Origin: a virus
Strand: one strand, 5' to 3'
Length of the DNA stretch: 64,000 bases
IMG/VR virus record: IMGVR_UViG_3300017917_002762
Coordinates: 1-64,000 of that record
Positions 1 to 14,440 of the stretch are shown here, piece after piece. Within the stretch, counting starts at the first letter, position 1. The number at the start of each line of letters is the position of its first letter. Made by a program: the position numbers and the translations under genes. Below the pieces are notes generated by a model. That model did not search any database. It was not told where the DNA came from and saw nothing but the letters and a program-made list of their open reading frames with translations.

Positions 1-828
1 ATCCATCATTTTTGGAGCAATACCAGCTTCTTCATGAAAAAAATAAGTTACTGGTCCACCGACACCATTAGTAGGATCTTTTTCAAAAGATGTACCTGTA
101 ATAATAGATTTATTACCTTTATATGTATCTCTACCACCAATTCTTACTTTAATACGTTGTTGCCATGAAAATACTTTATCTGGTTCTGAAGGTCTATACC
201 ATGCTGTATGTTCATTTAAAAAATTACGATATTCATTAAGCATTCTCCAAGATCCTTTTTCTGATATATAATCTTTAAGACTTGCTCCTATTTTATTAAC
301 AGATCCTTCTTCAAACCAATAAGTGTTAATCAATTTTGCCATATGAAAATAAGAACTGGCAATCTGACGTTTTTTAAGAATTGGAATATGTTTATAATTT
401 AATTCTGCTAAACATTCATAAAGAGCCATATGATATTGAGCATCTCTTACTTTAGCAAAATCAAATCTTTTTTCTTCTTTATCATAAATAGGTAGAAAGT
501 TTAACCACATGTAATAATCTCTAGTGAGATACCATGTTTTTCCATTATTTTTATATATAACTCCATTTCTACATTTATGTTTTTGTTCATCCCAATAAGC
601 AATATAATCTTTAGATCTTACAGGAAAATTACAATAATATCCATTTTTTTGAAAAGATTTAGCTTCTTTATTAAATACAAAACTTGTTTCATCAAATTTA
701 TAACCTACATCTGGTCCAGCATCAATAAAAATACTTCTAACAAAATCTTTAAAATCTTCTTTAGAAGAAAAATTAGTTATTGTCCAATTATTGTTTTCAT
801 AAGTATATATTTCAATATAATTACTCAT
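1..828 (-). CDS. terL: Phage terminase large subunit, N-terminal part (runs off left edge)
   Basis: ATPase/nuclease motor subunit that pumps phage DNA into the prohead. 276 codons are visible from the ATG at 828 and the frame is open to base 1, so the nuclease domain lies outside the window. The Walker B-like motif FHEEAG is at residues 264-269. The usual GxxxxGK[ST] Walker A is not seen; LKKRQIASSYF at 151-161 occupies the expected place, as in divergent terminases. An aromatic-rich N-terminal region precedes it. The start overlaps the end of the upstream small gene by 8 bp, which supports this start and translational coupling. The family call rests on motif order and neighbours. Confidence 0.8.
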   Translation of the reverse strand, partial: MSNYIEIYTYENNNWTITNFSSKEDFKDFVRSIFIDAGPDVGYKFDETSFVFNKEAKSFQKNGYYCNFPVRSKDYIAYWDEQKHKCRNGVIYKNNGKTWYLTRDYYMWLNFLPIYDKEEKRFDFAKVRDAQYHMALYECLAELNYKHIPILKKRQIASSYFHMAKLINTYWFEEGSVNKIGASLKDYISEKGSWRMLNEYRNFLNEHTAWYRPSEPDKVFSWQQRIKVRIGGRDTYKGNKSIITGTSFEKDPTNGVGGPVTYFFHEEAGIAPKMMD

Positions 829-997
829 TTTTTTCTTTAATTAATTTTATTAATTTATCCATTGAGGAGGCATACAAGTAATTGTCTTTTCCCATTCCAT
901 TAAAGTAGTTATTGTAATGTTCTCGTAAAAAACCGTACCACAATCCTGTGTGATGGTTGAAGTGAAATACCCAATCGTATAAGTAATCATTTTTCAT
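821..997 (-). CDS. Small conserved-looking protein upstream of terL (58 aa)
   Basis: 58 codons from an ATG at 997, ending in a stop that overlaps the terL start (ATGAGTAA arrangement). The N-terminal half is rich in aromatic and histidine residues and the C-terminal half is a basic, lysine-rich helix. It fills what would otherwise be a gap in a tightly packed minus-strand operon. Function is unknown; a packaging accessory role is only suggested by position. Confidence 0.6.
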   Translation of the reverse strand: MKNDYLYDWVFHFNHHTGLWYGFLREHYNNYFNGMGKDNYLYASSMDKLIKLIKEKNE

Positions 998-1010
998 ATA
1001 TTTTTTTAAT

Positions 1011-1520
1011 TTATTGATCGTATGCTAAATTTTGTCCACCTCTTACAATAGATTGTTCTTCTTGTAAATCACGAAGTGTTCCTTTAAAACTTTGTCTTAT
1101 AGCTTCAAATTTAGAAGCTGCATTAATAAGAGCAGTGATGTTTCCATCTCTTCCATGTTCTATTTCTGTAGTTTCCATATATTTAGCTAATCTATCAAGC
1201 ATACTTTTAATACCCATATATGCTCTAACAGTAGGTGTTTCATATAATTTCATAGTTATTTCTAATGCATCTTGAATTAATTGATCTTCTGCATCAAAAT
1301 CACCACCCACTTCTCTTCTAATTAATTCTTCTTTATCTATTTCAGGAACATCAAAAAAGGGATTATATTCTGGACTAGGACAAGATAAATAAAATAGATA
1401 AGCAAATATTTTAGTATTATCTTCTGGATAATTATCTATAATTTGTTTATATGTATTTATTGTATAACAATGTTCAGAAGGAATTACTTTATTGTTGCTT
1501 ATATCAAATAATTTTATCAT
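1011..1520 (-). CDS. Packaging-region protein of crAss-like type, function unknown
   Basis: 169 aa, mostly helical and acidic, with a central segment (about residues 80-160) predicted to be long amphipathic helices and a glycine-containing tail. It overlaps the next gene by 4 bp and lies two genes upstream of terL in the operon. Proteins of this appearance recur beside TerL in crAss-like phages (family memory, not searched). A small-terminase or head-completion role is conceivable from position and helical make-up, but no DNA-binding motif is clear. Confidence 0.6.
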   Translation of the reverse strand: MIKLFDISNNKVIPSEHCYTINTYKQIIDNYPEDNTKIFAYLFYLSCPSPEYNPFFDVPEIDKEELIRREVGGDFDAEDQLIQDALEITMKLYETPTVRAYMGIKSMLDRLAKYMETTEIEHGRDGNITALINAASKFEAIRQSFKGTLRDLQEEQSIVRGGQNLAYDQ

Positions 1521-1708
1521 AAATTGTTGTATGTTTTATTTTTAGTTATTTCAAATTCATAACATCTAATTGTTTCTGTATTTCTAGTGACAAAATATAT
1601 AATTTCATTTTTACTAATTAATATGTTAGTGATTATACAAAGATATTGATCTATATCTGTTTTAATATAAACCATTTCTCCAATTTCATATTCATTATCT
1701 ATAATCAT
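1517..1708 (-). CDS. Hypothetical protein (63 aa), beta-rich
   Basis: Short protein with alternating hydrophobic strands (residues about 10-55) that could form a small SH3-like barrel, ending in a basic stretch. ATG/stop overlaps of 4 bp on both sides place it in the terL operon. No family recognised. Confidence 0.55.
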   Translation of the reverse strand: MIIDNEYEIGEMVYIKTDIDQYLCIITNILISKNEIIYFVTRNTETIRCYEFEITKNKTYNNL

Positions 1709-1938
1709 AAATTTAAAAAATTATTTATTTCTTTTTCAGATTGTTTTAATTCAATAATATATTTATTACTATATTCAACAGGAATAAATGTAATAGAATC
1801 AACAATTAAAGATTCATCATCATGAGTTACTATTTTATTCAAATATAAGTTTTTTAAATCATTAATCGACATATTTGATTCAATAGTCCATTTGTTATTT
1901 TCTTTAAATAACACATTATCAATTTTTATTTTGCTCAT
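1705..1938 (-). CDS. Hypothetical protein (77 aa)
   Basis: Small protein with central alternating hydrophobic strands and an acidic, lysine-containing C-terminus. It overlaps its downstream neighbour by 4 bp and starts inside the last 20 bases of the PD-(D/E)XK gene, typical of coupled phage genes. No recognisable domain. Confidence 0.55.
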   Translation of the reverse strand: MSKIKIDNVLFKENNKWTIESNMSINDLKNLYLNKIVTHDDESLIVDSITFIPVEYSNKYIIELKQSEKEINNFLNL

Positions 1939-2740
1939 TTTTTAAATGATTTATAAGTGAAACAATTTCTGATTTTAAATAAGGTATATTATACTTTACA
2001 ATATCTTTTACTATAGGATTACCATCTGAATCTATTGCAGTGATTGGATTACCCCAACGATCTTTATCAACTTCTTCAAAAATAATATGATGTAATGTCA
2101 TTTCTCCAGGTTTGTATATATAATTATGTTTTAATATAATATACATATACATACTTAATTGTAAAGCATAATGATTAAAATTACAATCATCTAAATGAGA
2201 AATTGGTGGTAACATTTTTTGTTTAACACCATCCCAATTTTTAAAAGATTCTTGTTTTATTTCTTTGTTTGTTTTATAATCAATAATATTAACCTTACCA
2301 TTAATTATTTCTACTAAATCAGATTGACCACATAATCCAGCTGATTTTAAATAAATCATATGTTCTGGATAAATACCCTCTGTTAACCTTTGATCAGGTG
2401 CTATTTTTACATCACCTTCCATAATAGGTTTAATAATAGGAATATCAACACCATTTTTACCTATAGTAGAAAGACCACATAAATCAGTTTCTCTTTGATT
2501 ATGGTACCAAGTACCAAGATCTGTTGCTCTTTTTGCTTCTAAAGTCCAAGCTTTTTTTATATCTTCTGGTTTCATACCAAACCATTTAGAATTTTTAGAT
2601 TTGCTTACTTTTAATGCTGTACCTTCTGCATCAAAAGGTTTTTTAAATTTAGAAATAAAACTAGTTACAGATGTCCATTTAATATCATCACTATCTATTG
2701 ATGAATATTCATGGTATTTTGCTTTAAATTGTATAGCCAT
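1919..2740 (-). CDS. PD-(D/E)XK superfamily nuclease (Cas4/RecB-like)
   Basis: 273 aa. The motif series of Cas4/RecB-type nucleases is visible in order: a helix with GTWYHNQRE (histidine) near residues 97-105, GQSDLVE (Asp) near 139, IIDYKTNKE (the (D/E)XK core) near 153, and a QLSMYMY helix near 193. Such enzymes cut or trim DNA ends with Mg2+. It sits in the packaging operon rather than the replication operon, where a second, different PD-(D/E)XK protein occurs (45172-46185). That suggests a DNA-end processing role during packaging or maturation (inference). Fold call is confident; substrate unknown. Confidence 0.8.
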   Translation of the reverse strand: MAIQFKAKYHEYSSIDSDDIKWTSVTSFISKFKKPFDAEGTALKVSKSKNSKWFGMKPEDIKKAWTLEAKRATDLGTWYHNQRETDLCGLSTIGKNGVDIPIIKPIMEGDVKIAPDQRLTEGIYPEHMIYLKSAGLCGQSDLVEIINGKVNIIDYKTNKEIKQESFKNWDGVKQKMLPPISHLDDCNFNHYALQLSMYMYIILKHNYIYKPGEMTLHHIIFEEVDKDRWGNPITAIDSDGNPIVKDIVKYNIPYLKSEIVSLINHLKNEQNKN

Positions 2741-2741
2741 A

Positions 2742-3053
2742 TTAATAAAATTTTAATTTATTTTCTTCTTCTTCTGTAAGAACAGCTTCCCATTTAGGTT
2801 GTTCTAAAGGGCAACTTGAAGAAAGACTCCTTGTTTTAAGAGAAAGACTACAACCACACCCACCTGTATTTTTATTACAACAAGGACTTGTACCAGGAAC
2901 TAAACATCCTTCACCATTTGTATCATAATGTTGACAATTATTACAAATTTTTAATCTTTCTTTTGCTATAATTTCAACATGTTCTTTTTTAAAAAGATTA
3001 TTAGAAATACCTTCTAATATTTGTTTTCTATTTTTGTATATTTCTTTTAACAT
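2742..3053 (-). CDS. Cysteine-rich zinc-binding protein
   Basis: 103 aa. After a basic helical N-terminus come about ten cysteines between residues 36 and 82 (CNNC, a CC pair, CGC and a final C-P-L), the pattern of a small treble-clef or zinc-ribbon protein. Such proteins are common in Bacteroidota phages with no known role. It overlaps the IHF-like gene by 26 bp and is followed directly by the PD-(D/E)XK gene. Confidence 0.7.
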   Translation of the reverse strand: MLKEIYKNRKQILEGISNNLFKKEHVEIIAKERLKICNNCQHYDTNGEGCLVPGTSPCCNKNTGGCGCSLSLKTRSLSSSCPLEQPKWEAVLTEEEENKLKFY

Positions 3054-3417
3054 TTTTTAATATTTTTTTATGGTTTTTAATAAAAGATTTTCTTTCATTT
3101 TCTTTTTCCAACTCTCCTTTTATTTTATATAAAAGTTCTAATTTATCAGAATAACTTTTTTTTAAAATTTGTTCATTAAAAGAATTATCTAAAGAATCAA
3201 TAAATTTTTTAGTTTTATCTATCTCTTTATCTAATAACCAATGTTTAAATGTAAAATCTCCAAAATTGCTAATATGAATAATAGGATTTTTTAATTCAGA
3301 TAGAGCAATTCTTACATCTTTCCAGTATGTAAAAACAATTGTTTCTACAACATCAACTGGTAAATTAAGTTCTAATGCTGTAGAAACAATCAATTCTTTT
3401 GCTTTAATTGGTTTCAA
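3028..3417 (-). CDS. IHF/HU-like DNA-bending protein
   Basis: 129 aa. The N-terminal 60 residues follow the HU/IHF layout: two helices, then a strand with IHISNFGDFTFKHW at about 47-60, which matches the conserved IxGFGxF region of the family. The C-terminal half is a lysine/glutamate-rich helical extension. Crass-like phages usually carry IHF-type proteins near the packaging genes (established for the group). It probably bends DNA during packaging, replication or transcription. It overlaps the upstream gene by 14 bp. Confidence 0.65.
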   Translation of the reverse strand: MKPIKAKELIVSTALELNLPVDVVETIVFTYWKDVRIALSELKNPIIHISNFGDFTFKHWLLDKEIDKTKKFIDSLDNSFNEQILKKSYSDKLELLYKIKGELEKENERKSFIKNHKKILKNVKRNIQK

Positions 3418-3766
3418 GAAATAAAAAATTATAATTTAACAATATATTACCTTCATAAACAAGGTTTATATTTTCATAAAAATAAATCTTTTTTTTCTTT
3501 TTTCCTGTTTTATATATTAACCCTAACACTTCGCATTTTCTTAAACAATTTCTAATACTTTGTTCTGATTTAAAATACTTTAATTTTTGTTTACAAAATA
3601 AATTTAAATCTCTGTCTTTAGATAGTACTAAAGTAGTAAGACAATCAAGATCTGCTTCTGTAAGACTAATATCTTTAATAAAACAATAAGTAATAAGCTG
3701 ATATTGTACTATATCATACTTAGTATTTAAAACAGTCTTTTTTTCTATTTTATTTACTTCAGCCAT
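3404..3766 (-). CDS. Winged-helix-like DNA-binding protein
   Basis: 120 aa. Residues about 68-105 (helix with SIRNCLRKCEVLGLIYK, then a basic KKKKIYFY strand) look like a recognition helix followed by a wing, as in small winged-helix regulators. The N-terminus is a strand and acidic helix. The adjacent IHF-like gene and possible promoter at 4108-4136 suggest an early regulatory or structural DNA-binding role. Fold assignment is tentative. Confidence 0.6.
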   Translation of the reverse strand: MAEVNKIEKKTVLNTKYDIVQYQLITYCFIKDISLTEADLDCLTTLVLSKDRDLNLFCKQKLKYFKSEQSIRNCLRKCEVLGLIYKTGKKKKKIYFYENINLVYEGNILLNYNFLFLETN

Positions 3767-3770
3767 TTTA

Positions 3771-4091
3771 TTATTTTTTTAAAGATCTTTTTTTATTTTC
3801 TTCTTTAGGAATACGCACTACATCTCCTTCTTTAAAATTATCTTTTAATTCAGGATTGTTTTCTAAATCTTCTTTAGAAATAGTATGCATTTCATCATCA
3901 CCTGATTCAGGTGTTGTGTATTGAGATAGTCTATACAATGCTTCTGCATACCTTAAATTTTGTTCTGCAATAGAAGCATCTATAGTTCTTAATTCTAATT
4001 GAACTTTTTTAAATTCAATTTGATCGTTCATCCATTTAATAACATCTTCTTTAGAAGGTGTTTCTGGTGTGTTTGTTTCTTGGTTTTCCAT
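3771..4091 (-). CDS. Coiled-coil hypothetical protein
   Basis: 106 aa, acidic, with a proline/threonine-rich first 20 residues, a helical or coiled-coil segment (about 20-60) and a charged tail ending in a basic run. It is the first gene after the promoter-like boxes at 4108-4136. No family recognised; scaffold-like or adaptor function is possible but unsupported. Confidence 0.6.
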   Translation of the reverse strand: MENQETNTPETPSKEDVIKWMNDQIEFKKVQLELRTIDASIAEQNLRYAEALYRLSQYTTPESGDDEMHTISKEDLENNPELKDNFKEGDVVRIPKEENKKRSLKK

Positions 4092-4107
4092 AATAAATTA
4101 TTTTATG

Positions 4108-4136
4108 CAAATATAAAATAATTTATTAAAAACAAA
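4108..4136 (-). promoter_or_regulatory. Bacteroidota-type promoter for the 4091 operon
   Basis: On the minus strand a TTTG (-33) box is followed after 17 bases by TATATTTG (-7), matching the Bacteroidota consensus TTTG / TAnnTTTG. It sits 17-45 bases upstream of the start at 4091. Confidence 0.5.
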
Positions 4137-4157
4137 AAAAAATTAAATTTTTAAAAT

Positions 4158-4223
4158 TTAATTTTCACATAAACATTCGCTTGCTTCACATTCAGGACAG
4201 CATAATTTTACTTCTTTTTCCAT
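4158..4223 (-). CDS. Very small cysteine-rich ORF (21 aa)
   Basis: 21 codons from ATG to stop containing five cysteines (CC, C and CLC pattern) among acidic residues, as in a minimal zinc knuckle. It sits alone between the coiled-coil gene and the RepL-like gene. The high cysteine content in such AT-rich DNA argues against chance, but expression is unproven. Confidence 0.4.
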   Translation of the reverse strand: MEKEVKLCCPECEASECLCEN

Positions 4224-4292
4224 AATTTTATATATGATTTATATTAATAATTTACTAAAAATATTACAATTTTCAAACTAAAAAATAACCTT

Positions 4293-4332
4293 TTGTCCCG
4301 TTTTGGGACAATTTTGTCCCATTTTGGGACAA
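4293..4332. promoter_or_regulatory. Two tandem palindromes, probable operator pair
   Basis: Two copies of TGTCCC-N5-GGGACA at 4294-4310 and 4315-4331. Each is a perfect 6-bp inverted repeat with a 5-base spacer, and they start exactly 21 bp apart (two helical turns), so a dimeric protein would dock twice on one face. They lie just downstream of the RepL-like gene and upstream of the 4091 operon. A weak terminator function is also possible. Confidence 0.55.
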
Positions 4333-4390
4333 GCTTTCCTTTACTGGCAAGGGTTTCAGCATATTCCCTATTTAATATTTCAAAACAACT

Positions 4391-4888
4391 TTAAGTAGAT
4401 AATAATTTAGCAATTTTAGTTTTAGAAAAATAACTAAAAATAGAATCAGATTTTAATTTTCCTTTCCATGATATATAAGGATTTAATATCCAATATTCTG
4501 AAATAGATTCTTCATGCACCTTAATATGAGCATAAACACCCCAGTCAAAAAACTTTTTAAAAATCACCCCCACCTTATTTTTACCAATATTAAATTCTTC
4601 AGCCAACGTTCTTATAGATGTTTCATCAGAAAATGGTTTAAGACTATTTGTATTAAAATCAGATTTTTGTATCATTTTATAAACAATTCCCATTTCTTCA
4701 TTAGAAAAGACAGATGACAATAATTTAATAGCATCATCATTAACTATAGAAAAAGTAGTGTAATTTAATAAAGATTTATTTTCAGGTAGATTATTACTTT
4801 TTTTCTTAATAATAGAAACCTCCCCTGTCTGCGCGTTCATTTTTGCAGCAACCTCATCATCATTTAATTTTAAATTAATATTATACAT
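4391..4888 (-). CDS. RepL-like winged-helix replication protein
   Basis: 165 aa. The central region (about 65-125) carries a helix-turn-helix (SIRTLAEEFNIGKNKVGVI) and the C-terminal part a wing ending in YWILNPYISWKG, resembling the I/L-NPYI-x-x-G motif of plasmid RepL-type initiators. RepL-like proteins have been reported in crAss-like phages and linked to plasmid-like replication (group knowledge). It is the first minus-strand gene left of the divergent control region and has a TATATTTG box at 4904-4911. A transcriptional regulator of similar fold cannot be excluded. Confidence 0.55.
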   Translation of the reverse strand: MYNINLKLNDDEVAAKMNAQTGEVSIIKKKSNNLPENKSLLNYTTFSIVNDDAIKLLSSVFSNEEMGIVYKMIQKSDFNTNSLKPFSDETSIRTLAEEFNIGKNKVGVIFKKFFDWGVYAHIKVHEESISEYWILNPYISWKGKLKSDSIFSYFSKTKIAKLLST

Positions 4889-5035
4889 ATAAAATTATTT
4901 TTACAAATATAAAAAATTTTGGGGAAAAAATAATTTTTTTTTAAAAAAATTTACTGTGTAATCGAGGGTGTTTTTGAATCCCCATAAAACCATCCCTTCA
5001 CTTGCTTTAGCGGTATAAAACCCCCGCTTTCGCAT
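4889..5035. promoter_or_regulatory. Divergent intergenic control region
   Basis: The minus-strand packaging block and the plus-strand block diverge here. The minus strand has TATATTTG (4904-4911, a Bacteroidota -7 box) 16 bases before the gene at 4888. The right half is unusually GC-rich for this window, with short CCC/GGG runs at about 4965-5030 upstream of the plus-strand gene. No clear -33 box for the plus direction was found. Confidence 0.5.
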
Positions 5036-5311
5036 ATGTTGAAACTAATGTTCCAATCTGCTAGCAAAGCTAGCAAAGTAGCTAGTTCTATTGAACAAGC
5101 TACAACTATACAGGGTACACCTGTTCAAGCTGCCATTGTCAGTTTCACTGATGGCAGCAAATGCCTTGTAAGTGCAAAACACTTCCAAGCAGATGGCACT
5201 CCCAAATTCCTTACTCAGGAATTAGGAATTGCCAATGGATATGATATATCCTCAATCCAAGGACAACCTTGGATAGTTGAGAAATCTCAACGCAGTAGCA
5301 TTAAGTTCTAA
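5036..5311 (+). CDS. Hypothetical protein (91 aa), first plus-strand gene
   Basis: Alanine/serine-rich N-terminus (about 8-22), then a strand-rich region (28-60) and a loop-rich end. Codon use is richer in G and C than its neighbours, as for the gene at 7487. A strong terminator follows directly (5322-5342), so it is a single-gene transcript. The same start codon region could use the in-frame ATG four codons in. No family recognised. Confidence 0.6.
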   Translation: MLKLMFQSASKASKVASSIEQATTIQGTPVQAAIVSFTDGSKCLVSAKHFQADGTPKFLTQELGIANGYDISSIQGQPWIVEKSQRSSIKF

Positions 5312-5321
5312 CCTCACGGTT

Positions 5322-5342
5322 AGAGCTTATGCTCTTTTTTTC
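5322..5342 (+). terminator. Rho-independent terminator
   Basis: AGAGC-TTAT-GCTCT stem-loop followed directly by a run of seven T, just after the stop of the gene ending at 5311. Confidence 0.75.
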
Positions 5343-5394
5343 GTAATGTACGTAATTACAGCATTCTGTAATTTAAATTTACATTATTTACATT

Positions 5395-5410
5395 TGTTTC
5401 ACGTGGAACA
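5395..5410. promoter_or_regulatory. parS: parS-type ParB-binding site
   Basis: TGTTTCACGTGGAACA; on the minus strand this reads TGTTCCACGTGAAACA, the consensus bacterial chromosomal parS. All 14 specified positions of TGTTnCACGTGnAACA match. It is intergenic, between two terminators, beside iteron-like repeats. No parA or parB gene is in the window, so the likely binder is the host ParB. Confidence 0.75.
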
Positions 5411-5430
5411 TAAATTCTCATTTTATATCA

Positions 5431-5527
5431 AAGTGGGAATTTATGTTTATCTACACGGTGATAAATGTATACGAAGTGGGAATTTTATATCAAAAAACAA
5501 CCATTTTTGATGCTCAAGTGGGAATTT
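5431..5527. repeat. Three direct repeats AAGTGGGAATTT (iteron-like)
   Basis: Copies at 5431-5442, 5474-5485 and 5516-5527, each an exact AAGTGGGAATTT, spaced 43 and 42 bp apart (four helical turns). The first also pairs with TAAATTC at 5411-5417. Adjacent to the parS site and downstream of a RepL-like gene, they look like iterons of a replication origin or operators. Confidence 0.6.
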
Positions 5528-5538
5528 GTGTTTATTTG

Positions 5539-5572
5539 ATGGTGTGGGAATAACCACTCACACCATTTTTTT
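5539..5572 (+). terminator. Rho-independent terminator
   Basis: ATGGTGTG (5539-5546) pairs with CACACCAT (5559-5566), followed by a seven-T run. No ORF precedes it after the terminator at 5322, so the 5343-5570 interval with parS and repeats may be transcribed as a short RNA or simply be insulated. Confidence 0.65.
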
Positions 5573-5657
5573 ATTCCAAATAATTTCCAATAATCACACA
5601 AAAATTTTGCATTAAATAGCTAAAACTCTTTTATGTTCCTTTCATAGAGTATAAACA

Positions 5658-5954
5658 ATGATAAATACAAGGAGTGCATGGTTGCTCAAACTCAAAAAAC
5701 TTAACAAAATGGACATTACAGAAGCTTTTAGAATTTGGGATAATATGGGTAATACCATACAATCTCGTGATGATGAAAATAACAACTATGTTATTGAATT
5801 CATCAACAAATCAGGTAAAGTTGTAGGTAACATTATAACTTATCCTGGACAGGGTATTAGTTGGAATTATCCTCAAGAACTAATGGACAAAAAAAAGCAA
5901 TTAGATGAAATTGCTAATATGTCTTTAAAAGAACTTGAAGAATATTCTTATTAA
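5658..5954 (+). CDS. Hypothetical protein (98 aa)
   Basis: A basic leucine/lysine-rich start, a central strand region (about 45-70), and a lysine/glutamate-rich C-terminal helix. The next 345 bases are non-coding and highly structured, so this gene may be co-transcribed with RNA-A. No recognised domain. Confidence 0.6.
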   Translation: MINTRSAWLLKLKKLNKMDITEAFRIWDNMGNTIQSRDDENNNYVIEFINKSGKVVGNIITYPGQGISWNYPQELMDKKKQLDEIANMSLKELEEYSY

Positions 5955-5960
5955 ACCATT

Positions 5961-6241
5961 TGAGTTCACCTGAGATAATATCAAGGGTGAACTTTCTTTA
6001 AGGTTGATAAACCTTGATAAGTCCGAAATACATGATGACTTTAAACTAGGTGTGGTAAACGGTCTGCTAATATACCAGTCGCAAAACAATAGTATATTAA
6101 TTTCTCTTTGCACTAACCCACAAGGGTGAGCAGTTGTAACAAGCGGGTCTCTCATGTAATATTGAGGCAAGTCTAACCGTAAACAGAAATGCTTGTATGT
6201 TACAACTGAGTGCAGAGGGGATAAATAGAGTAAACTATTCA
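5961..6241 (+). ncRNA. Structured non-coding RNA candidate A
   Basis: The stretch between genes (5955-6299) has no ORF but many paired segments: AGTTCACC 5963-5970 with GGTGAACT 5986-5993; AAGGTT/AACCTT closing a GATA loop (6000-6015); TAATATAC 6068-6075 with GTATATTA 6092-6099; ACCC/GGGT (6116-6127); GTTGTAAC 6133-6140 with GTTACAAC 6199-6206, extended by AAGC/GCTT; closed by TGCACT 6109-6114 with AGTGCA 6209-6214. The G+C content is above the neighbouring genes. No group I core (R or S element) is present. Strand is assumed plus from the neighbouring genes. Confidence 0.6.
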
Positions 6242-6299
6242 AATCAGGAGTTCAACACAGCCTATATTAAAATGTGTTGTAAAATTAAATATTAAAACA

Positions 6300-6545
6300 A
6301 TGATAGTTGAAAATAGAGTTGAGTATAATACTGTTTATTCTAATTTGGTTTATCCAGATTGGACAAATAGAGATAAATTTGTTGTAATAGGTAAACTAGA
6401 CAATGAATTTGTAGAAGAAGAACTTGAAAGATTATTTCAAGCTACTTCAATAGCTAATAAATATGCTATACAAATGCCTGATAATATTTTATGGTATAAG
6501 CATGATTTTTCAGTATTTGCTCTTAAAGTTGTAGGTAATCTATAA
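6300..6545 (+). CDS. Hypothetical protein (81 aa)
   Basis: Acidic small protein with a glutamate-rich helix in the middle (about 35-55) and an aromatic C-terminal strand. It lies between structured RNA A and the zinc-binding gene. No family recognised. Confidence 0.6.
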   Translation: MIVENRVEYNTVYSNLVYPDWTNRDKFVVIGKLDNEFVEEELERLFQATSIANKYAIQMPDNILWYKHDFSVFALKVVGNL

Positions 6546-6596
6546 ACCTTCATTTTTTATTTACTCACTTAACAACCAACAAGCATGTTGTAAAAT

Positions 6597-6887
6597 ATGC
6601 AAACAATTATGATAGTACAACATCCAAATGGTAATTCTTATCTATTTATAGATAATAGAGTGTTTGTTTCATCTTATTATGAAAAAACAAATTCAGTAAT
6701 AACTGTTGAATTAGATTTATCTTTACCTTTAAATGATTGGGAAAAAGAACAAATTGCTAAACAGCCCAATCATGACTGCAACAATCCAAGTTGTCATACT
6801 TATGATGTTCCTTTTGGCGAATTGTATTGTAGTTCTTGTAATGCTCATTTTGAAATGTTAGAAAAATACATATTAGAAAATGATTAA
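6597..6887 (+). CDS. Hypothetical protein with C-terminal zinc site
   Basis: 96 aa. The N-terminal half is strand-rich (about 5-45). Four cysteines plus histidines occur near 60-85 in CNNPSC and YCSSC pairs, the spacing of a zinc ribbon. A second ATG four codons downstream is an equally good start. It directly precedes structured RNA B. Confidence 0.6.
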   Translation: MQTIMIVQHPNGNSYLFIDNRVFVSSYYEKTNSVITVELDLSLPLNDWEKEQIAKQPNHDCNNPSCHTYDVPFGELYCSSCNAHFEMLEKYILEND

Positions 6888-6890
6888 AAA

Positions 6891-7450
6891 AATACACCAA
6901 TTTCTTTGATATAGGATAAATGTAAGCCCTATAAAATGCTAAATATCTTAATTAGGATTAAACAGCAGCTATCAAAGTTTTAGGTGTAAAAAACATTGCA
7001 CAAAGTTGTAACTGAATCAATACTTATAATGACGTCTAAATAGTAATGATAGCAGTGCTAGAGACAAAGGTTAATGGTTTTAAACCAGGTTAGCTACTCC
7101 AATGTATGGTGGAGAATAATCCATGCTAAAATCCGTGTATACTATAACAAGCTGCGGATTACAATTAAGTGCAAAAACAGGTAGTTTGTTTGAAAGTTGT
7201 TCTGCCTTGGAGTAATCCTAAATTCAGTGAACTTTCAATGATGGTGAATTCTATCTAGGCTGATATATCTGAATATATATCCATTAAATATATTGTGACC
7301 AAAAGCGTCTTGACGAAGGGTAGCTCCCTTAGTTGCAATGTATTTAATGTCTAAGCATACAAGACTACCTACAGAGTTGTAAAAAATACTCACGGTGTAT
7401 GCGTTAAACCTTTATGGTGAACTAACAGTCAGCAAATCTTATTTTTAACC
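6891..7450 (+). ncRNA. Large ornate structured RNA candidate B (about 560-600 nt)
   Basis: A 599-base gene-free stretch with at least ten helices. Domain 1: TACACC 6893-6898 with GGTGTA 6983-6988, CTTTGATA 6904-6911 with TATCAAAG 6970-6977. Domain 2: TTGCAC 6996-7001 with GTGCAA 7169-7174, TTGTAA 7006-7011 with TTACAA 7159-7164, AATCCG 7130-7135 with CGGATT 7155-7160. TACTCCAA 7095-7102 pairs with TTGGAGTA 7207-7214, which lies in the loop of TGAAAGTT 7191-7198 / AACTTTCA 7230-7237, a pseudoknot. Domain 3: CATTAAATA 7282-7290 with TATTTAATG 7341-7349, enclosing CGTC/GACG and AAGGG/CCCTT hairpins. Size and complexity recall phage ROOL/GOLLD-class RNAs, but identity was not established. Confidence 0.65.
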
Positions 7451-7486
7451 TTAAATTTTTCTGTTTCTGAAACAGTACCAAAAACC

Positions 7487-8407
7487 ATGAGAATACATTC
7501 TCTTTCAACAAAAGGCTTATCTTTGAGCCAAGCACAATCAATTAGTAACTTGTGTTTTCAAAGAGCTCAAGACATTTCAAACCTAATTTCAGGTTTAAAT
7601 AATGCTACTAAGTCTCTTAAAATAGGTCAAGAAACCTATATTGAGACTGTTGGTAAACCTCTTCCTGTAAATATTGTAGCATTATTGCAGGAAAAAGCAT
7701 TGCTACATTCTACTCAAGCTTTTTTAATGGAAAACATTAAAGCTAAAGCAGAAATGTTAGAAGAAAAACAAAAAATGAGCTTTAAAAGCACCATTGTTTG
7801 TCCTGAAATACCTAAGTTAGTTAAATTTGATGATTTTCTTCAAAATGTTAATGAATTTTGGGGATGGCAACAGTTATCTGTATCTGAATACAACGAGTAT
7901 TTAGAAGCAGAAGCTTATGCAGCACATATTGGTCAATTTATTCATAAAAATAGTCCTTTGGATGATCTTAGAAAAGAATTGTCTACTATGAAAACTCTTG
8001 AATGGATTACTATTAAAGATGGAGAAAAAACTCCTCTTAAAGTAGAAATTCATCATACTCCTGAGCAATTGTTAAAAGTTCACGAAGAACTTGCAGCATT
8101 GCATAGAAAGTATGAGCAACGTGTAAATTACTTCAAAGCTAAGGTTAAAAACCTGGTTACTGAACAAAACGCACGTATTGCAAAAATTAATGCAGAAGCT
8201 CAAGCTGAAATGAATGCACAAAACGCTGTTATTTCTAACAACTATGATACTGCTTATGGTATGTATCAACAAGAAGTTCTTAGAGAGCAACAAGAGTTTG
8301 AAGCACAAAGACAGAATGATATAAAAACCATTGCTGCTTTGAGAATTGATGTAGATCCACGCTTCCAATCTGTTATAGATACGTTTCTAAAACAGTTGGA
8401 AGATTAA
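7487..8407 (+). CDS. Coiled-coil protein (306 aa), function unknown
   Basis: Helical protein: an N-terminal helical region (residues 1-95) with leucine repeats, a short loop, and a long coiled-coil segment (about 195-285) rich in A, E, Q, K and N. Codon use is more GC-rich than the surrounding genes and similar to 5036-5311, suggesting high expression or different origin. It lies between RNA candidates B and C; a strong hairpin follows at 8420-8454. It could be a structural or RNA-binding protein, but nothing in the sequence settles this. Confidence 0.7.
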   Translation: MRIHSLSTKGLSLSQAQSISNLCFQRAQDISNLISGLNNATKSLKIGQETYIETVGKPLPVNIVALLQEKALLHSTQAFLMENIKAKAEMLEEKQKMSFKSTIVCPEIPKLVKFDDFLQNVNEFWGWQQLSVSEYNEYLEAEAYAAHIGQFIHKNSPLDDLRKELSTMKTLEWITIKDGEKTPLKVEIHHTPEQLLKVHEELAALHRKYEQRVNYFKAKVKNLVTEQNARIAKINAEAQAEMNAQNAVISNNYDTAYGMYQQEVLREQQEFEAQRQNDIKTIAALRIDVDPRFQSVIDTFLKQLED

Positions 8408-8419
8408 TATATTAAAGGT

Positions 8420-8457
8420 GAAAAGAGGATAAGCACAAGCTGATTCCTCTTTTCTTT
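8420..8457 (+). terminator. Hairpin, probable terminator after the 306-aa gene
   Basis: GAAAAGAGGA (8420-8429) pairs over 10 bp with TCCTCTTTTC (8445-8454), followed by TTTA. The T-run is short, so a processing hairpin at the 5' side of RNA C is an alternative. Confidence 0.55.
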
Positions 8458-8460
8458 ATG

Positions 8461-8728
8461 TCTGAATAACAGATTTAAATATATATAATGTAAAAAACTA
8501 CTAAGATAAGTTTTTCAGATTTGATCTGAAAAACAAAACCGCTTTTCTTACAAATTAAACAAAACTGAGATAGAACTCATCGTTAAACCAAGTTACTGAA
8601 ATCTTATTAAGTAAGCAGATAATTGGTTAACACAATGAGTCTTGGTTTTTGTCTTTGCCTTTGTAGTAAGAAAAGGTCTTTGATCTTGTTGTTGATTTTG
8701 ACATTTTCTATATATCTGTTATTCAGAT
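8461..8728 (+). ncRNA. Structured non-coding RNA candidate C (about 265 nt)
   Basis: Closed by a perfect 13-bp helix, CTGAATAACAGAT 8462-8474 with ATCTGTTATTCAG 8714-8726. Inside: GTTTTTCAGAT 8510-8520 with ATCTGAAAAAC 8524-8534 (11 bp, 3-nt loop); CTTTTCTTAC 8542-8551 with GTAAGAAAAG 8666-8675; ACTCAT 8575-8580 with ATGAGT 8635-8640; and AAACCAAG 8585-8592 with CTTGGTTT 8641-8648, which crosses the previous helix (pseudoknot). No ORF of note. The nested long helices make a stable folded RNA very likely; function unknown. Confidence 0.65.
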
Positions 8729-8786
8729 AACTTTTATGTTTTTTGCAAATTTTTAAAACTTCATAAAATAACAAGATTTGTAACAT

Positions 8787-9017
8787 ATGATTTTTTCAAA
8801 TGATTATCATGCAGGAATTGGTGAAATGGTTAATAATAATTTAATCAATTGTTTTGATAAATTTATTCATCGGTTTGGTCAAGAATCTTTCAATAGAATT
8901 ATTTTTGAAGGAGAAGCTGCTAATGTTGCATATGCATATATTCATCCTTGTGATGAAATGCGTAAAACAAAAAGATTTGATGAAATACAAAAAGCATTTT
9001 TTAATGCTTATGTATAA
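8787..9017 (+). CDS. Hypothetical protein (76 aa)
   Basis: Small mixed alpha/beta protein with many aromatic residues and a basic C-terminal helix. It separates RNA candidates C and D. A shorter ORF overlaps in another frame but has poorer composition. No family recognised. Confidence 0.5.
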   Translation: MIFSNDYHAGIGEMVNNNLINCFDKFIHRFGQESFNRIIFEGEAANVAYAYIHPCDEMRKTKRFDEIQKAFFNAYV

Positions 9018-9059
9018 AACAATTGTAATTTATTCTAAACAATAACCTAAGTAATCCAA

Positions 9060-9350
9060 GATAACTTGAAACACGGTGTTTTAAGTTTTAAAACCAAGAG
9101 GTAACGTACCTCATTATGCAATCCGTTTTTTTAATCTTTAACACTTACACTCATAAGATTTGACCGTTTTATGAGTAAAAAATGTAAGAAATTACCACAC
9201 ATTTAACACCGAAAGGTGTTTAGGCTAAATAAATTTTGGTCAATAATGAGATAATTCATTATTAGATTTATGATGCCTAGTGTGGTCAGTTGAGTAAAAC
9301 TGTAAAATTTACTGCTGTTTAAATCTGTTCAGCAACCACAGATTAGTTGA
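9060..9350 (+). ncRNA. Structured non-coding RNA candidate D
   Basis: Gene-free stretch with clean helices: 9063-9073 with 9077-9087 (11 bp); GAGGT/ACCTC at 9098-9112; CTTACA 9144-9149 with TGTAAG 9183-9188 enclosing CTCATAA/TTATGAG; a three-way junction with CCACAC 9195-9200 closed by GTGTGG 9280-9285, containing AACACC-GAAA-GGTGTT (GNRA tetraloop, 9205-9220), AGGC/GCCT and AATAATGA 9242-9249 / TCATTATT 9256-9263; and AATCTGT 9322-9328 with ACAGATT 9338-9344. The GNRA loop and junction are strong signs of a selected RNA fold. Confidence 0.65.
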
Positions 9351-9400
9351 TTGATGGTGATTATCCACTTGATATTAACGTAAAGTTTTAAGCGTAACAT

Positions 9401-9530
9401 ATATTCATTTTATATTAGTTGTAATAGACTTAGAAACTTTATTGTTTGGTTCGTAGAAGATATATACGAGAAACAATATTGCAAGTATTCTCTATTACAA
9501 CTATATAAATGAATATTTTATTTTTTTTTT
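9401..9530 (+). ncRNA. Very long imperfect hairpin ending in a T-tract
   Basis: ATATTCATTT 9401-9410 pairs with AAATGAATAT 9507-9516 and AGTTGTAATAGA 9417-9428 with TCTATTACAACT 9491-9502. Inside, ATTGTTT/AAACAAT and TCGTA/TACGA continue the stem, giving one arm of about 116 nt. A T-rich run follows at 9517-9532, so it may terminate RNA D or act as a precursor hairpin. Confidence 0.6.
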
Positions 9531-9578
9531 CATTCATCATATTTAAAAACTTTTTTTCACACTTTTAAACATTTTTTT

Positions 9579-10007
9579 ATGATTAGAAACATTTCAAATT
9601 TGCCTTTTCCTCTAACAGTTATTAGTGTTATAACTGCTTTAAATTCTTTTGAAGAAGAATTTTATTTAACTGGTAGTAGATTCTTTGGAACTGAAACTGC
9701 TAATTCTGATTGGGATTTTTTTGTAAGTAAATATTATTTTAATGTTATAAAGAAATTATTAAATTTAGGATTCAAAGAAATTCCTTGTGAAAAAATGGTT
9801 GACTTAAGTTATGATATCAATCAATTTTCTACAATTTTAGAATTACGAGCTGTAGATGGAGTTATTCAAATTCAAATAATAGATAATATTCATTCTAAGA
9901 ATAGAGTGCAAGAAATTATTAAGAAAGAATATCTTTTTGAATTTAATAATATGACTAAGTCAGAAAGAAAGAAATTTTGGAGTTTGCTATTAAATATAGC
10001 AAGATAA
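9579..10007 (+). CDS. MNT-type nucleotidyltransferase-fold protein
   Basis: 142 aa. The signature of minimal polymerase-beta-like nucleotidyltransferases is clear: GSRFFG at 32-37 followed by SDWDFFV at 43-49, giving the two metal-binding aspartates D44 and D46. A third acidic strand near 80-100 is plausible. Members transfer NMPs to proteins, small molecules or RNA ends, and some act as antitoxins. The gene stands right after the long hairpin of RNA D, so an RNA substrate is possible (inference only). The C-terminus is a basic helix. Confidence 0.75.
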   Translation: MIRNISNLPFPLTVISVITALNSFEEEFYLTGSRFFGTETANSDWDFFVSKYYFNVIKKLLNLGFKEIPCEKMVDLSYDINQFSTILELRAVDGVIQIQIIDNIHSKNRVQEIIKKEYLFEFNNMTKSERKKFWSLLLNIAR

Positions 10008-10038
10008 TAATATTTTTAATCTTTAAAACAACAACGCG

Positions 10039-10200
10039 ATGAAAAAACAAAAATTTTCAATTAAAACACTATTGTTTAAATCAGTAGCAGATTTTAAATC
10101 TTGGTTTTGTTACATAACTAAGAAATTTACTGACATGAAAATCATATTTACAAAAAATGTAAATAGAAAATTTCTTTATAAAGTTAAATATAGTATTTAA
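10039..10200 (+). CDS. Small basic protein (53 aa)
   Basis: ATG at 10039, stop at 10200. About a quarter of residues are lysine or arginine, with several phenylalanines and tryptophan, typical of small nucleic-acid- or host-protein-binding phage peptides. It is followed 8 bases later by a near-perfect terminator, which supports it being the last gene of a transcript. No family recognised. Confidence 0.5.
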   Translation: MKKQKFSIKTLLFKSVADFKSWFCYITKKFTDMKIIFTKNVNRKFLYKVKYSI

Positions 10201-10207
10201 CTTTGTT

Positions 10208-10247
10208 ACGTAGTTTGTAATAATACATTACAAACTACGTTTTTTTC
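10208..10247 (+). terminator. Strong rho-independent terminator
   Basis: ACGTAGTTTGTAA (10208-10220) pairs perfectly over 13 bp with TTACAAACTACGT (10228-10240), followed by a run of seven T. Confidence 0.85.
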
Positions 10248-10266
10248 TTATTTAATAATTGTAAAC

Positions 10267-10860
10267 ATGAAACAATACACAAAATTACCAGTACCAAAGG
10301 ATTCTATTTTTGACAGAAAATGGTTTAACTTATACAAAAAAACTATTAACTACAAAATAAGATTGTTTTTTAATGGTGTGAGTAATGTAATTAGATGGAT
10401 ACCCACTATTTATCAAGATGCAGATTGGGATGATTATTATATCTTAAATATATTACAAAAAAAGATAGAAAATCAAAGAAAGTATTTGGTAAATGCTAAT
10501 AGACATACTAAGATAAATGAGGATAATTACTGGATGACAGTTGCTTTAAACTTAATTGAAAGAACCAAATACGAACATTACTCAGTAGAATATTTAGATT
10601 ATGCTGAATTTGATAGTAAGTTTGTTCCTTCTAAAACACGTGAAGGTTGTTTTGAATGGAAACAAGTAGAAATTTCAGAAAATTGGGATGATTACTTATC
10701 AAAATATAAATCAACCGTTAGAAAAATATTAAAAAAACAACCCGAATTAATAAATAATAAACATGATTTATCACATAGAGTTGCTTCTGAAGTGCAATTT
10801 AAATGTAATAATTTAATGTGGGAAGTTTTAAAAAGAAAATTATCACATTGGTGGGATTAA
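10267..10860 (+). CDS. Conserved phage hypothetical protein with IRW-P-xx-DxDWD motif
   Basis: 197 aa. The segment VIRWIPTIYQDADWDDYY (about residues 41-58), followed by a helical region with paired basic residues, is a pattern I recognise from many phage proteins of unknown function. The C-terminal half contains another tryptophan-rich acidic segment and a basic end. Preceded by a strong terminator, so it starts a new transcript that continues into the RNA elements at 10881-11169. Confidence 0.65.
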   Translation: MKQYTKLPVPKDSIFDRKWFNLYKKTINYKIRLFFNGVSNVIRWIPTIYQDADWDDYYILNILQKKIENQRKYLVNANRHTKINEDNYWMTVALNLIERTKYEHYSVEYLDYAEFDSKFVPSKTREGCFEWKQVEISENWDDYLSKYKSTVRKILKKQPELINNKHDLSHRVASEVQFKCNNLMWEVLKRKLSHWWD

Positions 10861-10880
10861 TAAATCAAAAGGTTTTAGTA

Positions 10881-10956
10881 GTGTTGTTCCCTTGAGAAAG
10901 GAATATTAGTTAAGAGGATGATAAGATTCCTACAACACAGGGGATTTCTCATCCTC
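10881..10956 (+). ncRNA. H-type pseudoknot RNA element E
   Basis: GTGTTGT 10881-10887 pairs with ACAACAC 10932-10938, and GAGGATG 10914-10920, inside that loop, pairs with CATCCTC 10950-10956, a classical H-type pseudoknot with two 7-bp stems. A small TTCC/GGAA hairpin lies in between. It ends six bases before the tRNA-like element at 10962, so it may be part of the same transcript or its leader. Confidence 0.6.
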
Positions 10957-10961
10957 AAATT

Positions 10962-11048
10962 GGAGCACAGAATAGAAAACGTGGCAGGGTTACCTATAAT
11001 TAGGATTTAGTTGCCTAAGCCTTCTTGGTTCGACTCCAAGGTGCTCCA
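10962..11048 (+). tRNA. tRNA-like gene 1, atypical interior
   Basis: Seven-bp acceptor stem GGAGCAC / GTGCTCC (10962-10968, 11041-11047) and a perfect T-arm CTTGG-TTCGACT-CCAAG just inside it. The interior is odd: a candidate anticodon arm TTAGG..CCTAA has a 9-nt loop, and about 32 nt, instead of 19, separate the acceptor from it with no clean D-arm. The anticodon cannot be read safely. It may be a degenerate tRNA, a mimic, or carry a small insert. Confidence 0.5.
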
Positions 11049-11053
11049 CATAT

Positions 11054-11169
11054 AGTCAGGTAGCGGAATGGTAGACGCAGATATAATTCTTCGTGAAAAT
11101 CAATGGTATGGTGAGAGTCCATGTAAAATCCTAGATACCCATTACAGGTTCGATTCCTGTTCTTGACTG
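11054..11169 (+). tRNA. tRNA-like gene 2, Leu-type D-arm with oversized interior (116 nt)
   Basis: Acceptor AGTCAGG / CTTGACT (one G-U), D-arm GCG..CGC with the GGTAGA loop typical of tRNA-Leu, and perfect T-arm ACAGG-TTCGATT-CCTGT. Between D- and T-arms are about 65 nt instead of the 35 or so of a class II tRNA. An extra hairpin region, AATGG..CCCATT, encloses ATGG-N7-CCAT. No unambiguous anticodon loop. Either an insert-containing tRNA or a tRNA mimic. Confidence 0.55.
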
Positions 11170-11210
11170 GACAAGATATGTGTAGGAGGTAGAAATATCT
11201 CCTACATTTC

Positions 11211-11241
11211 TTGTTTTAATTAACAAAAGTTCGTATATTTG
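11211..11241 (+). promoter_or_regulatory. Bacteroidota-type promoter for the HNH gene
   Basis: TTG at 11211-11213 and TATATTTG at 11234-11241 with a 20-base spacer, matching the -33/-7 consensus, 22 bases before the ATG at 11263. Confidence 0.6.
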
Positions 11242-11262
11242 TGACTACGAAAATATAAATAT

Positions 11263-11676
11263 ATGCAAAGATTTTTTGATAAAGTAAACAAAACTAATAC
11301 TTGTTGGTTATGGACAGCAGGATTAAGAGGTAAAACAGGATATGGTGCATTTAAATTTAATGGTAAAGTTATAGATGCTCATAGAGTATCTTATGAATTA
11401 CACAATGGAGTTATTCCTGATGGAATGTATGTATGTCACACCTGTGATAATAGAAAATGCGTAAATCCCAATCATCTATTTTTAGGTTCTCCTAAAGATA
11501 ATTGGCAAGACGGATTTGATAAAGAAAGAATTAAACCATTAGGAGGAATAGATATAGAGAAATTAAAAAAACATCCAAGTAGAGGTGCATACCTTAGAGG
11601 ATGTAGATGTGAAGAATGTAAAGCTATTAATAATATGATGGTTAAAAGATATAGAGAAGGATTAAAAAATAAATAG
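11263..11676 (+). CDS. HNH homing-type endonuclease
   Basis: 137 aa. The canonical phage HNH core is present: AHRVSYELHNG (about 46-56), then MYVCHTCDNRKCVNPNHL (64-82) with paired cysteines and the final N-x-x-H, followed by the LGSPKDN segment. A C-terminal basic zinc-like CRCEEC region (about 110-118) may help DNA binding. It is a free-standing gene with its own promoter, inserted beside tRNA-like genes, a common landing place for homing nucleases. Confidence 0.85.
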   Translation: MQRFFDKVNKTNTCWLWTAGLRGKTGYGAFKFNGKVIDAHRVSYELHNGVIPDGMYVCHTCDNRKCVNPNHLFLGSPKDNWQDGFDKERIKPLGGIDIEKLKKHPSRGAYLRGCRCEECKAINNMMVKRYREGLKNK

Positions 11677-11705
11677 TCCTGTCCTGACTGCAAAAAAATA
11701 TAATT

Positions 11706-11906
11706 ATGGTAATAGTAAAATTAAAAAATTGTATTCATCAAAATAGGAAGAATCAAAATACTACATTTTGGTTTTCTAAGAAAAAATATGGTTTTAATAA
11801 AGAATATGTTGTGACATCTGATTGGGTTCTAAATAATTTGGAATTGTTAACCGCTGATATTAAACGTCAAAAGGATACAAAAATTGAAATAGAGTTCCTG
11901 TCCTAA
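11706..11906 (+). CDS. Hypothetical protein (66 aa), basic
   Basis: Basic small protein with aromatic-rich middle (about 20-40) and an acidic last strand. It sits between the HNH gene and a 92-aa gene with short spacers. No recognised domain. Confidence 0.5.
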   Translation: MVIVKLKNCIHQNRKNQNTTFWFSKKKYGFNKEYVVTSDWVLNNLELLTADIKRQKDTKIEIEFLS

Positions 11907-11927
11907 CTACTATAAAATTTAAAAAGT

Positions 11928-12206
11928 ATGGAAAAAAAAGAAAAACTTGAATATTGGTTTTGTGAAATTGGACCAATAGATAGAAGTAAAGTTCTTAGTG
12001 GTGGAGATTATCCATTAAGAATGGCAATTCAAAATAAATTTATCGAAATTTTTGGTAAGCAAGCTGAAAGTTGTTCCAGTGGTTGGGGACTAACTAAAGA
12101 AATGAAAACAAGATTAGATATTATTTCTTTTCTACCTACAATAGACCCAAGTGGCGAGATATTAAAACAAATTGATGAAATATTATCAAAAAGACCAATG
12201 TATTAA
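11928..12206 (+). CDS. Hypothetical protein (92 aa)
   Basis: Mixed alpha/beta protein with conserved-looking segments EYWFCEIGPIDRS (9-21) and SSGWGLTKEM (50-60), then a helical end. The preserved tryptophans and glycines suggest a real folded domain, but I do not recognise it. Confidence 0.55.
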   Translation: MEKKEKLEYWFCEIGPIDRSKVLSGGDYPLRMAIQNKFIEIFGKQAESCSSGWGLTKEMKTRLDIISFLPTIDPSGEILKQIDEILSKRPMY

Positions 12207-12213
12207 ATAAAAT

Positions 12214-12266
12214 GGGCAAGTAGCGGAATTGGTAGTGATGGTCATATAATGACAACTGTTAATCTT
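12214..12266 (+). pseudogene. tRNA 5'-half remnant
   Basis: GGGCAAG-TA-GCGGAATTGGTAG matches the acceptor 5' strand and D-arm of Leu-type tRNAs (compare 11054 and 14967), followed by a GTCA-TATAA-TGAC hairpin. No matching acceptor 3' strand or T-arm follows before the RNA ligase gene, so it is a broken tRNA or tRNA-derived element. Confidence 0.5.
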
Positions 12267-12312
12267 AAAAAAATATAAATTACTTATTATTTATTAAAAA
12301 ATTAATAAAAAA

Positions 12313-13440
12313 ATGGAAAATTTAAATAGCTGCTGCTATGTAGCAAAGATCAAAGAAATTGAATCAATTCCTGGTGCAGATAATATTGAACAAGTACTTA
12401 TTGGAGGATGGAATTGTATTACCAAAAAAGGTGAATATAATATAAATGACCTAGTAGTAATAGCAACCACAGATGCTATCATTCCTCAAAAATTATCAGA
12501 TGGATTAGGTATTACTAATTACTTACGTAAAGGTCAACGTGTAAGAACAGTAAAACTTCGTGGAGTTTATAGCGAGTGTTTAATTATTCCAATCACCTTT
12601 ATACCTGTAAAATACAGAACAGAAGGTACAGATTGTATGGAATTATTAGAAATCTTTAAGTATGAACCACCAGTTAAACAAGTACAATTATCATCAGGTA
12701 AAAAAATTAGATATCAATCTAATCCAGCTTTCCATGTTTATTATAAGTTTCCTAACTTAAAAAATGTACCTGGAATGTTTACTGAAACTGATTTAGTACA
12801 AATAACAAGAAAAATACATGGTACTAATGCTAGATATGGTATAATTAAAAAAATTAAATTATCATTTTGGGATAGAATTAAAAAGTTTTTAAGACTAGCA
12901 GATGAATGGATTGATTATGAATTTGTTGTGGGTAGTCATAATGTAGAGAAAGGTTCTGATTCTCAAGGCTTTTATGATACAAATGTTTGGTATGAAATTG
13001 CTGATAAATACAACATCAAAAAGAAATTATGGGATTATATTAAAGTAAGAAGTTCTATTGATCCTCTAGAAACTGGTGTTATTATTTATGGTGAAATATA
13101 TGGTGCTGGTATTCAAAAGAATTATAATTATGGTTTAAATGATCTTGAATTTGTTATGTTTGATATGACATGGAATAATCATTATGATTCTACAATGGTA
13201 ACAGAATATGCAGCTAATAATATTATAAAACTACCTCATGTACCTGTACTATATGAAGGACATTGGTCACAAAGTATTCAAGATACATTCGTATTTAATA
13301 ATTATATAGAAAACAGTAAAGTGCCTCATGAAGGTATTGTAATTAAACATATATCAGGTGAAAGAAACAAAGTGGCAAAAATTATTAATCCAGAATATTT
13401 AACATATGGTGAAAAACATGATATTGGTGATAATCACTAG
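12313..13440 (+). CDS. RNA ligase, DRB0094/Rnl5-like
   Basis: 375 aa. An N-terminal OB-fold-like region (1-110) resembling tRNA-binding domains precedes the nucleotidyltransferase domain. Motif I is KIHGTN at 167-172 (predicted AMP-accepting Lys167), motif III/IIIa EIYGAG at 261-266 and VMFDM at 281-285, motif IV HEGIVIKH at 339-346, motif V AKIINP at 355-360. This is the order of the Deinococcus-type RNA ligases that seal 3'-OH/5'-phosphate nicks in RNA. It lies among tRNA-like genes and 28 bp before a metallophosphatase gene, which suggests an RNA (tRNA) repair or splicing module (inference). Confidence 0.85.
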   Translation: MENLNSCCYVAKIKEIESIPGADNIEQVLIGGWNCITKKGEYNINDLVVIATTDAIIPQKLSDGLGITNYLRKGQRVRTVKLRGVYSECLIIPITFIPVKYRTEGTDCMELLEIFKYEPPVKQVQLSSGKKIRYQSNPAFHVYYKFPNLKNVPGMFTETDLVQITRKIHGTNARYGIIKKIKLSFWDRIKKFLRLADEWIDYEFVVGSHNVEKGSDSQGFYDTNVWYEIADKYNIKKKLWDYIKVRSSIDPLETGVIIYGEIYGAGIQKNYNYGLNDLEFVMFDMTWNNHYDSTMVTEYAANNIIKLPHVPVLYEGHWSQSIQDTFVFNNYIENSKVPHEGIVIKHISGERNKVAKIINPEYLTYGEKHDIGDNH

Positions 13441-13467
13441 TTAAAAAAATAAATCTAGTTAAAAATT

Positions 13468-14205: not shown

Positions 14206-14212
14206 AAAAAAT

Positions 14213-14428: not shown

Positions 14429-14440
14429 AAATTTAAAATC

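Follow-up and report, generated by a model that had tools for sequence, protein, structure and literature searches.

A recurrent parS sequence in a freshwater crAss-like phage and its relatives suggests use of, or interference with, the host segregation machinery

The source of the window (the 64,000-nt stretch analysed here, positions 1 to 64,000 of IMG/VR record IMGVR_UViG_3300017917_002762) is a freshwater crAss-like phage that carries a perfect chromosomal-type parS sequence. Computation shows that the site is present and perfect, that its recurrence in relatives is non-random, that it is selected at the DNA level, that the phage has no recognisable Par domains and that the motif is the same as the one linked to mnmG in Bacteroidota. 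These results suggest that such viruses exploit, or interfere with, the segregation machinery of their hosts. With modest confidence, we favour a genuine, selected, orphan host-type parS through which host ParB, together with ParA and probably SMC, would tether or segregate an extrachromosomal phage genome.

Results

A perfect parS sequence in a crAss-like phage genome

The sequence TGTTTCACGTGGAACA at positions 5395-5410 is a 16-bp palindrome of the TGTTNCACGTGNAACA type, the type of chromosomal parS centromeres, with 0 mismatches and all 14 specified positions exact. The initial annotation had described the site as perfect, intergenic and very unlikely to arise by chance, and the analysis of the whole record agrees on each point. 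It is the only exact match in 125,946 bp, a record in which a reversed-pattern control gives 0 matches; base composition predicts 0.00021 exact sites per genome; and the site lies between a 91-aa ORF that ends at 5311 and an ORF with a likely ATG at 5709. The first 87 bases of the 125,946-bp contig are identical to its last 87 bases, and because of this direct terminal repeat the contig is probably a complete, circularly permuted genome.

Membership of the crAss-like group is given by PHROG matches of the portal (phrog_6547, 2.2e-77), MCP (phrog_11589, 3.6e-27) and TerL (phrog_6681, 4.5e-43) and by a Pfam match to CrAss_Ring_2 (CrAss tail ring protein 2, 4.9e-18). TerL matches Crassvirales and Flavobacterium phages at ~25% identity, and megablast against named phages returned no match. 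The phage has replication genes of its own (DnaB helicase, primase and DNA polymerase) as well as lysis genes (endolysin and holin), and no plasmid replication gene was recognised in its genome.

The divergent-transcription junction

parS lies at a junction of divergent transcription, where the leftward genes reach as far as 4888, the rightward ones begin at 5036 and the GC skew changes sign (at ~5-6 kb) with the switch of the main gene direction (Table 1). The 91-aa ORF has homologs in L213 (82%) and L130/131 (65%); unrelated genes take its place in L127/L460, L129 and G033, and in G033 a homolog of the 165-aa ORF (77% identical) adjoins parS. The second rightward ORF likely starts at ATG 5709 rather than at 5658, because 5658 falls within the pseudoknot described below. 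A mechanically called TTG ORF at 5277-5510 crosses parS and is unlikely to be a gene.

Table 1 Features around the parS site (positions in the window)
Feature	Positions	Strand	Remark
First leftward ORF, 165 aa	4391..4888	-	Low-confidence model, winged-helix-like helix order
First rightward ORF, 91 aa, no family	5036..5311	+	Ends 83 bp before parS
parS near-palindrome TGTTTCACGTGGAACA	5395..5410	.	16-mer recurs at same locus in relatives
Direct repeat AAGTGGGAATTT, copy 1	5431..5442	+	
Direct repeat AAGTGGGAATTT, copy 2	5474..5485	+	
Direct repeat AAGTGGGAATTT, copy 3	5516..5527	+	Array not conserved in relatives
Conserved leader with H-type pseudoknot	5625..5694	+	Anchor that led to further loci
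Second rightward ORF	5709..5954	+	In frame with mechanical ORF 5658-5954

Two neighbouring features named in the initial annotation, iteron-like repeats and a RepL-like gene, were not supported. Three 12-bp AAGTGGGAATTT repeats do follow parS in the window, but seven relatives have no repeat array, and for 4391-4888 Pfam gives no RepL even at E<=10, the AlphaFold model being weak (pLDDT 52). An overlap of parS with a Bacteroidota -7 promoter (TACATTTG at 5389-5396) was rejected, since relatives do not share it. Two tandem 21-bp hairpin-forming units (TTTTGTCCC[G/A]TTTTGGGACAA; 4291-4332) between a 106-aa ORF (3771-4091) and the 165-aa ORF (4391-4888) form a possible terminator or operator.

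The leader downstream of parS folds into a 5-bp stem (5625-5629/5646-5650) and a 4-bp pseudoknot pairing (5642-5645/5658-5661), and is also present in L129, L213, L440-L443, L445, L446, L448-L455, L457 (two copies), L459 and L460. The stem is paired in 21 of 21 sequences with five different arm pairs, and the pseudoknot is fully Watson-Crick in 20 of the 21 with at least seven arm pairs, indicating co-variation; the loop contains an invariant TGTTCC, and a GGAGTGCATGGTAGCTCAAACTC-like sequence lies downstream. With no credible Rfam match in a scan of window positions 4000-12000, the leader looks like an undescribed phage RNA element. Two further stretches between small rightward ORFs (5955-6299 and 6888-7486), both long, without convincing genes and without an Rfam match, are possibly further structured RNAs.

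Recurrence of parS at the same locus

At least eight relatives have one or two exact parS sites at the junction. L127, L129, L130/131 and L151 belong to a set gathered through the nuclease gene at 1919-2740, with parS ignored in the selection, and in each of them (L127, L129, L130, L131 and L151) an exact parS lies 2.2-2.7 kb upstream of the nuclease gene; other anchors led to junction sites in G033, L213 (two copies), L460 (two) and L440 (one). The initial annotation had proposed conservation at the same locus as a check on the site, and the check is passed by these relatives and failed by L126, which has no parS despite a nearly identical left block. Between junction-type phages the 16-mer stays exact while its flanks and the neighbouring first gene vary, and the promoter-like letters that flank it are not conserved.

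Where two copies are present, they are spaced 125-154 bp apart. In the single copy of L127, the left flank corresponds to that of the first copy of L129/L130 and the right flank to that of the second. This looks like a precise loss, around 10312 (reverse strand), of the 153-154 bp between the two direct parS copies seen in L129 and L130, leaving one exact copy. From one close relative to another, the first rightward gene is swapped among several unrelated small families (window 5036-5311, L127, L129, G033/L333 and L460) while parS stays, an early-gene cassette swap in which one exchanged family shares the motif FAQRTLGENK. Elsewhere among these phages, the divergent 96-kb contig L440 has a 521-aa GroEL-like chaperonin ORF (6097-7662, plus strand) near its parS junction, and L122 contains a single 5123-aa ORF (599-15970, minus strand), the size and place of which suggest a giant crAss-like RNA polymerase.

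parS inside genes and departure from chance

Among 40 records picked by their capsid protein (MCP), 17 have parS with at most one mismatch (reversed control, 0/40). Many of the in-gene sites are in the gene that intervenes between portal and capsid, within an unconserved acidic linker, where parS reads V[PS]R[GE]T. A count over 11 genomes, in ORFs of at least 150 aa, gives four occurrences of the peptide, one of them in a different gene (G012, 122,927); the underlying DNA is parS with at most one mismatch in 4/4 occurrences and exact in 3/4, the probability of exact coding given the peptide is 0.001-0.002 (two forms calculated), and the residue variation falls mostly at degenerate parS positions. 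L312/L317 have a one-mismatch parS in the linker gene that falls in a different reading frame. That V[PS]R[GE]T is always encoded as parS argues that selection acts on the DNA of the in-gene sites, leaving their position free, and coding coincidence is ruled out by the codon test and the peptide count. Across relatives, parS moves between intergenic and coding places and between strands yet keeps its sequence, which points to a trans-acting reader.

Eight near-complete genomes contain five exact parS sites, compared with a mean of 0.0024 and a maximum of 1 for 419 permuted half-site palindromes, these genomes being related and the sites, in at least three unrelated places, partly non-independent. 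Among the 13 records longer than 90 kb, five have an exact parS, one has a one-mismatch site and seven have no site with at most one mismatch; parS is conserved beyond chance in the relatives, though not universal. None of 15 named crAss-like or related phages (11 classed as Crassvirales) has parS with at most one mismatch. Two-mismatch sites, which are mostly chance-like, were left out of use; p-crAssphage has one, in an annotated tail sheath gene, that is not significant.

No recognisable Par proteins and a host-type motif

The initial annotation had also claimed that parA and parB genes are missing, and the larger search confirms it: ParB_N, HTH_ParB and AAA_31/ParA have no domain match across the whole 125,946-bp contig, none of 13 relatives has ParB_N above the cut-off, and a phage-encoded ParABS, with ParA and ParB genes on the element itself, was not found. 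One weak ParB_N match in G012 (17 bits) is below the cut-off, and this ParB_N-fold protein was rejected as the reader of parS, since it has no HTH_ParB and is also present in three genomes without parS.

The exact motif is present in 111 of 148 Bacteroidota genomes (control, 2/148). In five Bacteroidota genomes inspected, mnmG adjoins parS, and parS pairs ~1.9 kb apart flank mnmG in inspected Bacteroidota; we take these mnmG-linked sites, following established parS knowledge, to be bound by ParB. On the second check raised by the initial annotation, whether the host motif is the same, the phage site largely passes: it is identical to this motif and matches that of the likely hosts, which we infer to be Bacteroidota. 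In GTDB assemblies, capsid relatives occur in a Chitinophagaceae bin (80% identity) and also in Campylobacteraceae and Pseudomonadales bins, and the Chitinophagaceae MAG that holds the contig with the 80%-identical capsid gene has the same 16-mer. Host assignment is by bin membership, and because capsid relatives are found in bins of other phyla as well, a Bacteroidota host is likely, not proven. A cyanobacterial host, hinted at by the best local TerL match (Leptolyngbya phage Lbo-JY46), was rejected, that phage having no site with at most two mismatches.

Occurrence in other viruses

Beyond this clade, at least 120 IMG/VR stretches contain TGTTTCACGTGGAACA; two control 16-mers matched to it in composition and core are present in 4 and 12. 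Host contamination was rejected as an explanation of these stretches, no mnmG being present among those listed. Of 43 carriers scanned for ParB_N (contigs of ~15 kb or more, many of them fragments), 39 have no match, and phages may commonly carry an orphan parS of the host type. The 116.7-kb virus contig L045 (65% GC, no ParB_N match) has twelve exact parS sites within 5 kb (8906-13863), a possible parS array or decoy.

Discussion

We infer that host ParB binds the phage site and that the phage gains in partition or positioning. Host chromosomal ParB would load on the phage parS and spread in the form of a CTP-dependent clamp. Acting with ParB, the ParA of the host and probably SMC would tether, segregate or position the extrachromosomal phage genome, giving the phage inheritance or a good position although it encodes no Par protein of its own. 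The exact site (~0.0002 expected), its recurrence, the lack of Par domains in the phage and the identical host motif count in favour of this partition reading. Against it count the patchy distribution of parS, which is missing from 7 of the 13 records longer than 90 kb, from L126 and from the 15 named phages; the phage's own replisome and lysis genes, with no plasmid replication gene recognised; and a host drawn from bin membership, with capsid relatives also in bins of other phyla. A study of P. aeruginosa reports a single parS as necessary and sufficient for chromosome segregation (PMC4368675), and crAss-like phages have been proposed to exist in an extrachromosomal carrier or phage-plasmid state (PMC11844821, PMC11652158).

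ParB titration, SMC-driven compaction and transcriptional silencing share their first step with partition, namely the loading of host ParB on the phage site. Such loading might mainly bring in SMC or cover the junction with ParB, resulting in DNA compaction or in the silencing or timing of early transcription instead of segregation. ParB loads SMC in other bacteria, and the junction-type sites lie where transcription diverges, between the first gene of one arm and that of the other, as would suit this alternative; the presence of parS within structural genes or other ORFs in further relatives speaks against purely local regulation, and we consider the alternative unlikely overall. Somewhat less probable still is a decoy, in which multicopy phage genomes would titrate host ParB off the chromosome and upset host segregation or nucleoid organisation to the gain of the phage. 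A decoy requires the site alone, as observed, phage copy number multiplies parS, and one parS is enough for the loading of many ParB clamps; however, each genome has just one or two sites where arrays might be expected, and the gain is doubtful because many bacteria withstand the loss of parB.

Two further readings fare much worse. An operator, promoter or other site for a phage protein, resembling parS by coincidence or convergence, would agree with an intergenic, palindromic motif near early genes, but is very improbable given the identity to the host motif at 14 positions, the shifts between intergenic and coding places and between strands, and the unconserved promoter-like flanks. We give equally little credence to a 16-mer kept as a recombination seam for first-gene cassette exchange or left as a passive remnant of a lost ParABS: the adjoining gene is exchanged while parS stays, and L127 resembles a precise deletion between two copies of L129/L130, but a seam does not need the host-parS sequence, and a remnant should decay, yet the sites remain exact and turn up again in coding DNA, with constraint at the codon level.

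The use of host ParB for partition, as favoured here, would have both parallels and differences among known systems. The chromosomal ParABS of Bacteroidota (mnmG/gidA-linked) has the identical 16-mer, in 1-3 sites that are often clustered, whereas here the site is on a phage genome without parA or parB. CTX-phi uses host XerCD through dif-like sites and likewise recruits a chromosome-maintenance protein of its host by means of a short, borrowed chromosomal site of the host type, but for integration and resolution, in contrast to the ParB loading proposed here. Phage-plasmid ParABS systems (P1, N15 sop and actinophage parABS; reviewed in PMC11652158) also place a centromere site on the phage genome, but encode their own ParA and ParB and a private centromere, unlike the orphan host-type site described here. 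With the named crAss-like phages, among which Carjivirus communis has been proposed as a phage-plasmid (PMC11652158, PMC11844821), the present phage has in common the terminase, portal and capsid families, CrAss tail ring protein 2 and divergent gene arms; it differs in a TerL only ~25% identical to theirs and in its parS, no site with at most one mismatch being present in the 15 tested. A full-text literature search, with most subscription journals outside it, returned no earlier report of parS in crAss-like phages.

The stable low-level replication of crAss-like phages has been termed a mystery (PMC11844821), and their persistence without integration is an open question for which an orphan host parS offers a specific, cheap and testable mechanism. 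L126 on the one hand and L127 and L129-131 on the other are natural pairs of close relatives without and with parS, ready for comparison. Phages of many kinds may exploit host segregation by a stolen centromere alone, an orphan host-type parS recruiting host ParB, a reading to which we give slightly less than even odds. If general, host ParB recruitment would offer a way of being inherited outside the chromosome that has drawn little notice, and its simple parS sequence signature could be screened across viromes.
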